Source: Lachnospiraceae bacterium
GTDB lineage: Bacteria > Bacillota > Clostridia > Lachnospirales > Lachnospiraceae
DNA: 18,504 nt
Direction: 5' to 3'
Assembly: GCA_900765975.1 (NCBI GenBank)
Contig: CAAFTS010000081.1
Span: forward strand, 1 to 18,504
Below, piece after piece: positions 6,855 through 8,843 of this stretch. The notes beneath the pieces are model-generated. The model had not been told where the DNA came from and searched no databases. It saw nothing but the letters and a program-made list of their open reading frames with translations. The number at the start of each line of letters is the position of its first letter. Position 1 is the stretch's first letter. Made by a program: the position numbers and the translations under genes.

Positions 6855-8843
6855 ATGAAGAATTATGAGAAGTATGAGCGGTCTTATTTTATGCCGCCGG
6901 TGGGATGCTATGATTGGGTAAAGAAAGATTATATTGATACGCCGCCGATTTGGTGCAGCGTGGATTTGCGGGATGGAAATCAGGCGCTGATTGAGCCTAT
7001 GAGTTTGGAAGAAAAGGTAGAATTTTTTAAATTACTTGTAAAAGTTGGATTTAAAGAAATTGAAGTGGGATTTCCGGCAGCCTCTGAGACGGAATTTCAG
7101 TTCATGCGGACGCTGATTGAAGAGGATTTGATTCCGGAAGATGTAACGGTTCAGGTATTGACACAGGCAAGGGAACATATTATTAAGAGAACATTTGAAG
7201 CGGTAAAGGGAGCGCCTCATGCTGTAATACATGTATATAATTCTACTTCCGTTGCACAGCGGGAACAAGTATTTCGTAAAGATAAAGAACAGGTAAAACA
7301 GATTGCGATTGATGGAGCTAAACTGTTAAAAGAACTGGCAGAAGAAACGGATGGTAATTTTACTTTTGAATATAGTCCGGAAAGTTTTCCGGGAACAGAA
7401 GTGGAATATGCCCTGGAAGTCTGCAATGCGGTGCTGGATGTATGGAAACCGACACCGGATAAGAAAGCGATTATTAATCTTCCGACAACGGTACAGATTG
7501 CAATGCCACATGTATTTGCCAGTCAGGTGGAATATTTCCATAAAAATTTATTACATCGGGACAGCGTAATTCTCTCTCTGCATCCTCACAATGACCGAGG
7601 ATGTGGCATTAGCGACGCAGAACTTGGCGTGCTGGCGGGAGCTGACAGAATTGAAGGTACATTGTTTGGAAACGGAGAGCGTACCGGCAATGTAGATATT
7701 ATTACATTGGCGATGAATATGTTTTCTCATGGTGTGGATCCAAAGCTGGATTTTGCAGATATGGGTGAAATTTGCGAAATCTATGAACGTTTAACCAGAA
7801 TGGAGGTTTCACCACGTCAGCCATATGCAGGAGAATTAGTGTTTACAGCCTTTTCAGGTTCGCATCAAGACGCAATTGCAAAAGGTATGGCCTGGCGCGA
7901 AGAAAAAGAATGTGATAAATGGACTGTTCCATATTTGCCGATCGATCCAAAGGATGTCGGTAGAAAATATGATTCTGATGTAATTCGAATTAACAGTCAG
8001 TCTGGAAAGGGTGGAGTTAACTATATCTTAAAGCAAAATTATGGTATCAGTCTGCCGGAGAAGATGAAGGAAGAGGTTGGCTATTTGGTCAAAGATGTAT
8101 CAGACAAGGCGCACAAAGAACTTACGGCGGATTGGGTATATCATATATTTGAAGACAATTATATCAACGCAAAAAGTATTTTTACGATTGATGCCTGTCA
8201 TTTTAAGCAGGAAGATGGAATCCTGTCGGAAGCAACAATAACACATGCCGGAGAACGCCGTATGATCACTGGCGTGGGAAATGGTCGTTTGGATGCAGTG
8301 AGCAATGCTTTGAAACATTATTTTGATGTAAATTATGAACTGGCATTTTATGAGGAACATTCTCTTGCTAAAGGATCCTCTTCAAAAGCTGTAGCATATG
8401 TAGGAATTATATGTAATGGCAAAACGTATTGGGGTGTCGGAATTGATGCGGACATTATCAAAGCCTCAATTGCAGCATTGGAAGTTGCAGTAAATAGAAT
8501 GGATGAGATTCAAAATCGTAATCGCTCGAAAGATGCTCGTCTTCTGGAAATTACCAATTATATTTATGCAAACTATAAAACGGTGACCCTGGATGATCTG
8601 GCAGAAAAATTCTTTTTGTCTAAGCCGTATTTATCAAAATATATCAAAGAAAAATCAGGAATGACATTTGGAGATATCTTGAAGGCAGTTCGCATGAAAA
8701 AAGCAAGAGCTATGCTCAAGAGTAGTAATGCAACGGTGGAAAGCATTGCAGAATCGGTAGGATATCAAAATGTCGAACATTTTAACCGGATTTTCAAAAA
8801 AATGTATGAAATGACCCCGGTGCAGTATCGAAATAAAAAGTAA
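6855..8843 (+). CDS. leuA: 2-isopropylmalate synthase fused to an AraC-type DNA-binding domain
   Basis: A 662-residue protein. Residues ~28-310 form the HMGL/DRE-TIM barrel of the long (type 2, yeast/actinobacterial-like) isopropylmalate synthase, which condenses acetyl-CoA with 2-oxoisovalerate in the first committed step of leucine synthesis. SVDLRDGNQ at 35-43 and the metal-binding HPHND at 243-247 are present. Residues ~425-553 are an intact LeuA allosteric dimer domain (GNGRLDA, EHSLAKGSSSKAVAYV, WGVGIDADI), the leucine-feedback site of the family. After a short charged linker, residues ~562-660 are a full AraC/XylS double helix-turn-helix: the first HTH lies around LDDLAEKFFLSKPYLSKYIK, the second at VESIAESVGYQNVEHFNRIF, ending TPVQYR. 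There is no stop, frameshift or internal start in between. GGGAGAGG precedes the ATG. No leuB, leuC or leuD is adjacent. A DNA-binding, leucine-responsive role is inferred, not shown. Confidence 0.93.
   Translation: MKNYEKYERSYFMPPVGCYDWVKKDYIDTPPIWCSVDLRDGNQALIEPMSLEEKVEFFKLLVKVGFKEIEVGFPAASETEFQFMRTLIEEDLIPEDVTVQVLTQAREHIIKRTFEAVKGAPHAVIHVYNSTSVAQREQVFRKDKEQVKQIAIDGAKLLKELAEETDGNFTFEYSPESFPGTEVEYALEVCNAVLDVWKPTPDKKAIINLPTTVQIAMPHVFASQVEYFHKNLLHRDSVILSLHPHNDRGCGISDAELGVLAGADRIEGTLFGNGERTGNVDIITLAMNMFSHGVDPKLDFADMGEICEIYERLTRMEVSPRQPYAGELVFTAFSGSHQDAIAKGMAWREEKECDKWTVPYLPIDPKDVGRKYDSDVIRINSQSGKGGVNYILKQNYGISLPEKMKEEVGYLVKDVSDKAHKELTADWVYHIFEDNYINAKSIFTIDACHFKQEDGILSEATITHAGERRMITGVGNGRLDAVSNALKHYFDVNYELAFYEEHSLAKGSSSKAVAYVGIICNGKTYWGVGIDADIIKASIAALEVAVNRMDEIQNRNRSKDARLLEITNYIYANYKTVTLDDLAEKFFLSKPYLSKYIKEKSGMTFGDILKAVRMKKARAMLKSSNATVESIAESVGYQNVEHFNRIFKKMYEMTPVQYRNKK

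Follow-up and report, generated by a model that had tools for sequence, protein, structure and literature searches.

The leuA gene of a Lachnospiraceae bacterium, located on an 18,504-nucleotide stretch (contig CAAFTS010000081.1, assembly GCA_900765975.1; hereafter the window, meaning the whole of this stretch), encodes a type-2 2-isopropylmalate synthase (IPMS) that ends in an AraC-type double helix-turn-helix (HTH). We consider it probable that this protein is both an enzyme of the leucine pathway and a transcription factor that controls its own leuA promoter, activating it when leucine is scarce. The original prediction was that the enzyme may double as a leucine-responsive transcription factor. 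Genome comparison gives strong support to the regulator half of this prediction, since a conserved operator tracks the HTH across genomes and the strong sites elsewhere lie at leucine, isoleucine and valine genes. The leucine half is less certain, as set out below.

Domain structure and distribution of the fusion

The open reading frame (ORF) begins with ATG and is unbroken. Pfam and NCBIfam bear out the expectation that this single frame would hold an IPMS barrel, a LeuA dimer domain and a full AraC HTH (Table 1). Against NCBIfam NF002991 (2-isopropylmalate synthase) the protein scores 809 bits, with a cut-off of 455, and it contains the motifs DLRDGN (residues 37-42), HPHND (243-247) and GNGRLDA (475-481). 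A barrel with HxHND, an IPMS_D2 domain, a LeuA_dimer domain and a score above the cut-off together identify it as a predicted type-2 IPMS, and at the level of motifs the enzyme part appears intact. The AlphaFold model (mean predicted local distance difference test score 85, predicted template modelling score 0.64) has a Mycobacterium tuberculosis LeuA structure as its top Foldseek match, and the alignment with that enzyme shows that DLRDGN, HPHND and the dimer domain's GNG motif have been retained. The C-terminal region is predicted to be a complete AraC/XylS double HTH of about 100 residues. Two segments, SKPYLSKYIK (589-598) and NVEHFNRIFKK (639-649), which we take from the AraC family to be the recognition helices, are highly conserved, instead of showing the loss of DNA-contacting residues that would speak against a regulatory role.

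Table 1. Coordinates of leuA, its domains and its predicted promoter elements in the window.
Feature	Position	Strand	Basis or detail
leuA, type-2 IPMS with C-terminal AraC double HTH, 662 aa	6855..8843	+	ORF, Pfam, NCBIfam, homologues
HMGL-like catalytic barrel, residues 32-306, holds DLRDGN and HPHND	6948..7772	+	Pfam, E=4.1e-71
IPMS_D2 post-catalytic domain, residues 327-393	7833..8033	+	Pfam
LeuA_dimer allosteric domain, residues 423-549, holds GNGRLDA	8121..8501	+	Pfam, E=5e-23
AraC-type HTH region, residues 560-660	8532..8834	+	Pfam HTH_18 582-660 (1e-21), HTH_AraC 621-660
Predicted operator, 40-bp model	6733..6772	+	score 44.9, best in window on both strands
Predicted operator half-sites	6734-6749 and 6756-6771	+	offset 22 bp
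Predicted extended -10 element TGATAGTAT	6792..6800	+	begins 47 bp after the start of the operator's ATCAA
Second operator-like copy (73 bp further downstream)	6806..6845	+	score -13.9 in window, up to 20 in clade

The 120 best-listed of 7983 homologues are 82-100% identical, 659-666 residues long and all have the same Pfam domains, and among the named species that encode the fusion in a single frame are Coprococcus comes, Hespellia stercorisuis, Faecalicatena contorta and Mediterraneibacter massiliensis. For this reason we exclude a sequencing error that had removed a stop codon between the domains, as well as the other doubt raised at the outset, that the fusion might be missing from close relatives; mapped across the Lachnospiraceae by domain search, it proves to be conserved and not specific to the window. 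Scanning genome contigs turned up 43 loci, comprising 28 in-frame fusions, two with the HTH in another frame and 13 without an HTH. Among 397 Lachnospiraceae genomes, 363 have a match at E<=1e-50, including at least 89 full-length fusions and one more that a contig end truncates; the listed matches reach about 4e-258 and three candidates were scored per genome, so weaker fusions may be missed in this survey. In a class-wide draw of 391 genomes, 86 matched at E<=1e-200 and 13 full-length fusions were found (six of these genomes are also in the family draw). A single IPMS match at E<=1e-50 is present in 16 of 16 genomes tested; in the larger survey a second match occurs in some fused genomes, e.g. 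G025 and G324. The source names of the listed homologous proteins are 2-isopropylmalate synthase only, and the regulator is therefore hidden in the annotation.

An operator at leuA follows the HTH

Most of the fused genes are preceded by a conserved element, ATCAA-N6-TGATTA, inside a wider frame. Column analysis of 82 distinct sites resolves it into two direct-repeat half-sites with a best offset of 22 bp, and an extended -10 element (TGnTAnnnT) begins 47 bp after ATCAA in 76 of them. In the window, these elements would place the start of leuA transcription at about 6807 and the inner half-site at about -51 to -36, beside the -35 region, which matches the class II activation geometry of araBAD. 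E. coli AraC resembles the window protein in its C-terminal double HTH and in the layout of its operator, where direct-repeat half-sites lie about 21-22 bp apart with the inner one beside the -35; the two differ in their sensor, which in AraC is a sugar-binding domain and in the window protein an intact metabolic enzyme. By eye the -35 hexamer of the window is poor, and a poor -35 combined with an extended -10 in fixed register is what is expected for an activator.

For distinct loci whose upstream sequence extends to 300 bp or more, we compared the presence of this operator with that of the HTH. A score above -12, a threshold picked near the 99% point of the null after the scores were seen, is reached at 123 of 128 HTH-bearing loci and at 0 of 30 HTH-less loci; only 2 of 2560 resampled upstream sequences reach a score of 0, the null being first-order resampling. 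Because the operator model had been trained on sites from a pattern built on the same loci, we ran a held-out test, in which models trained on one identity class and tested on the other recovered 79/84 versus 0/30 and 43/44 versus 1/30 (areas under the curve of 0.987 and 0.989). Eight loci below 60% identity (proteobacterial copies and second paralogues) and copies identical over the first 500 residues were dropped, and six HTH-bearing loci with less than 300 bp upstream went unscored. Two loci with strong operators that our script had called HTH-less were excluded from the HTH-less count: L205, which has an early internal stop and its HTH in the -1 frame, and L214, a contig-cut 5' part whose remainder is L209.

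The tree of 163 IPMS domains contains 11 changes of HTH state, six of them forced by supported branches. In six independent pairs on supported branches, at the threshold of -12, operator and HTH agree in a mean of 5.985 of 6, with none opposed (median p 0.031). Within a single genus, the operator is likewise absent from the two relatives that yielded no HTH, L202 and L206. The conserved direct-repeat operator at the leuA promoter, which tracks the protein, is a feature expected of AraC/XylS transcription factors.

In some relatives the predicted operator is joined by a T-box leader. Rfam confirmed the T-box pattern in 13 of 14 chosen positive loci (the miss is L118) and in none of five chosen negative ones; a search of the window for T-box or other RNA returned nothing at gathering cut-offs. 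At the 25 HTH-bearing loci with both an operator and a T-box motif, the operator lies 254-368 nt upstream of the motif, and promoter and T-box control are therefore stacked there. Loss of the T-box as a correlate of the fusion was considered and rejected, as it has no support on the tree. A fused relative with an operator (L015, 9867-10000) seems to have only a T-box terminator stem upstream of leuA, as if its T-box were decaying.

Sites beyond leuA

A pattern search of the 397 genomes with up to two mismatches gave 76 sites in 71 genomes; by eye, 65 of them are at leuA, all in HTH-bearing genomes, and 11 are elsewhere. With up to three mismatches (35 fused and 15 unfused genomes), 17 more-distant sites were found in fused genomes, one of them common to the two-mismatch search. 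Together the searches yield 23 non-leuA sites in HTH-bearing genomes. Six score above 10, and all six precede genes for branched-chain amino acid (BCAA) synthesis, whose names were checked by NCBIfam: leuC (L270 and L275), leuB-ilvD (L273), ilvB-ilvN (L269/L280), ilvB (L361, Mediterraneibacter massiliensis, in the window's own clade) and ilvN-ilvC (L268). The other 17 score 10 or less and do not fit (best 7.7, 7.7, 7.1 and 7.1); they include two near-identical Hespellia sites (G015) within ORFs of a repeated stretch, and one in G393 that precedes a gene read as an ammonium transporter. Of the six non-leuA sites examined first, five have a -10-like hexamer at 50-51, the leuA register, and the sixth, at L348, has TGnTAnnnT beginning at 48; the L361 ilvB site has no hexamer in that -10 register. 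From these comparisons leuA is the core predicted target, with other targets sporadic and rare.

Several results weigh against a regulator that acts in this way. With the operator threshold set at 0 the pair test falls to 5.3 of 6 (median p 0.06), and at five HTH-bearing loci (L090, L105, L112, L124 and L132) there is no operator above -12 within 1 kb. Among genomes without the fusion, the two-mismatch search found four sites, none at a recognised BCAA gene, of which only that at L277 exceeds 10, with a score of 12; in the three-mismatch search, seven of nine such sites were examined (all but G128 and G280), with a best score of 5.3 and none at a recognised BCAA gene. A scan aimed at leuC, which covered 69 of 80 genomes (L309 was too short, and the leuC starts of L281-L310 were placed by motif), gave an upstream score of at least 0 in only 2 of the 50 HTH-bearing genomes covered and in none of the 19 others; the positives are the leuC site of L281, identical with that of L270, and one at a leuD-leuC operon in L348. 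Finally, 16 fused genomes gave no sign of an ilvD or leuC regulon, with all operator scores below -13 at their 20 ilvD-family and 30 aconitase-family loci.

Two observations concern leuC itself. By eye, a conserved ATATGTATTTCnATTATA-like element, perhaps a LysR-type site, is common to the leuC promoters of L285, L286, L294 and L295, whether or not the genome has the HTH. In G213, G217, G324 and other Lachnospiraceae there are two tandem LeuC-like proteins, 41-47% like the usual LeuC.

Frame-split relatives

In one genus, searched by way of G012 (20 genomes, 19 with a match), 13 loci have a run of A at the domain junction (11 A9 and two A8) with the HTH continuing in another frame; some of these loci are close kin (L195-L197). 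A further locus of the genus, L191, has A10 and the HTH in frame, and homologues of this clade are listed as proteins of both 557-563 and 661-678 residues. Similar arrangements occur beyond the genus at L022 (A9) and L140 (A8), and L134 is split without a run. The window gene itself is an in-frame fusion with no A-run at its domain junction.

The out-of-frame HTH has a ratio of nonsynonymous to synonymous substitution of 0.07, compared with 0.08 in the IPMS part (66 pairs, 12 loci), both estimated with near-saturated synonymous sites (median proportions of synonymous differences 0.69 and 0.60). These relatives thus combine a conserved, potentially slippery run with a second frame apparently under selection. 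According to two studies, poly-A runs at a frame change yield short and long products in Thermus thermophilus dnaX and in GeneTack genes, runs of nine A slip efficiently in bacteria, and a 9-A cassette gave 40% frameshifting (PMC5009743, PMC3711429). The split relatives resemble these genes in having the run at the frame change and differ in that the appended part would be a DNA-binding domain on a metabolic enzyme. Because an out-of-frame HTH under purifying selection lies behind a conserved A-run, the comparison suggests that slippage or frameshifting adds the HTH to part of the enzyme in these relatives.

It is possible, if somewhat doubtful, that the run is instead explained by DNA-level phase variation, by translation of a free HTH from an ATG further downstream, or by a fault in assembly. 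Run length does vary among A8, A9 and A10 within one genus, and L027, a split locus of that genus from a metagenome-assembled genome, has an ATG in the HTH frame shortly after the stop. Against these explanations, A9 is kept in 11 of the 13 loci in opposition to codon use (lysine is encoded 187 times by AAG versus 104 by AAA, and 10.7% of codons end in A, in nine loci), and by eye the D-x-R of the fused linker is retained between the A-run and the first ATG in 13 of 13.

In the same genus, the loci L208 and L210-L213 encode an IPMS about 51% identical and without an HTH, which in four genomes is a second copy.

Proposed mechanism and alternatives

We propose that the AraC domain binds the two direct-repeat half-sites just upstream of the leuA -35 region and that a leucine-free IPMS dimer on these tandem sites would activate leuA from the class II position. 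Leucine bound to the adjacent LeuA dimer domain, the leucine-binding part of the IPMS family, would stop both catalysis and activation. The regulator would also have acquired other leucine, isoleucine and valine promoters in a small number of lineages. That the fusion binds DNA is very probable from the comparison of genomes. That it activates leuA transcription, as the promoter geometry indicates, is likely, and that leucine is the signal and the LeuA dimer domain the sensor is a reasonable expectation from the domain order and the biology of LeuA. We lean slightly away from the fullest version of the scheme, in which the feedback-inhibited enzyme is its own leucine-sensing activator and A8-A9 slippage in some relatives sets the tail-bearing fraction, fixing the ratio of enzyme to transcription factor.

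The second operator-like copy bears on the direction of control. At 34 of 42 loci in the window's clade, the highest-scoring further match is found 73 or 74 bp downstream of the first operator, where it overlaps the early transcript, and this copy may add repression. The fusion could on these grounds be an autorepressor or a dual regulator, and not mainly an activator; this is unlikely, as outside the clade a second match above -10 occurs in just 5 of 77 loci, and the main site adjoins the -35 region in the promoter setting described above. Activation accordingly stays our preferred reading of the leuA promoter.

As for the signal, conservation is higher in the barrel (0.86) and IPMS_D2 (0.87) than in the LeuA dimer domain (0.73), and the catalytic state could therefore be what is read out, with substrate, product or enzyme occupancy (flux) sensed in place of leucine. 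We think this quite improbable, given that the HTH directly follows the leucine-binding domain. Least credible of all is a passive, vestigial HTH, with some other regulator binding the conserved element: although our case for DNA binding by the fusion is a comparative one, the element is present or absent along with the HTH, and strong purifying selection acts on the HTH even when it is out of frame.

Comparison with known systems

M. tuberculosis LeuA (PDB 1sr9, 3fig), the best match in sequence and fold, is likewise a type-2 IPMS made up of a barrel, a linker and a LeuA dimer domain; its alignment covers only residues 26-549 of the window protein and leaves the HTH unmatched. The trigger enzyme PutA and the repair protein Ada, which has an AraC HTH, combine catalysis and sequence-specific gene control in one polypeptide, with enzymes other than that of the window fusion. 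We know of no other biosynthetic enzyme with a feedback site beside an AraC domain. No description of an IPMS-AraC fusion was found in the open papers searched. Fusions of enzymes with DNA-binding domains are known in kind, and what is new here is that a biosynthetic enzyme under feedback regulation carries an AraC domain and has an operator of its own. In BzdR, a DNA-binding domain was recruited by an enzyme-like domain, which is presented as an enzyme evolving into a regulator (PMC3602430); unlike BzdR as presented there, the window protein has intact enzyme motifs, and a fused IPMS is the only match in each of the 16 genomes noted above.

The fusion, present in many gut bacteria, unites an enzyme, its probable sensor and a regulator in a single polypeptide. 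Since its operator is defined and some of the species that have it are named, it offers a direct way to test how an enzyme can turn into its own transcription factor. The frame-split relatives show a possible way to hold such a fusion as a minor product of one gene.

Neighbouring genes

Downstream of leuA, the window contains sodium-pumping decarboxylase genes (9019-14269), among them a gamma subunit (10470-11237) with a DUF3887 domain ahead of OAD_gamma by Pfam. Two D-Ala-D-Ala carboxypeptidase-like ORFs lie within 5 kb of each other at 1725-2942 and 5409-6731, the first recognised by eye and the second by Pfam.
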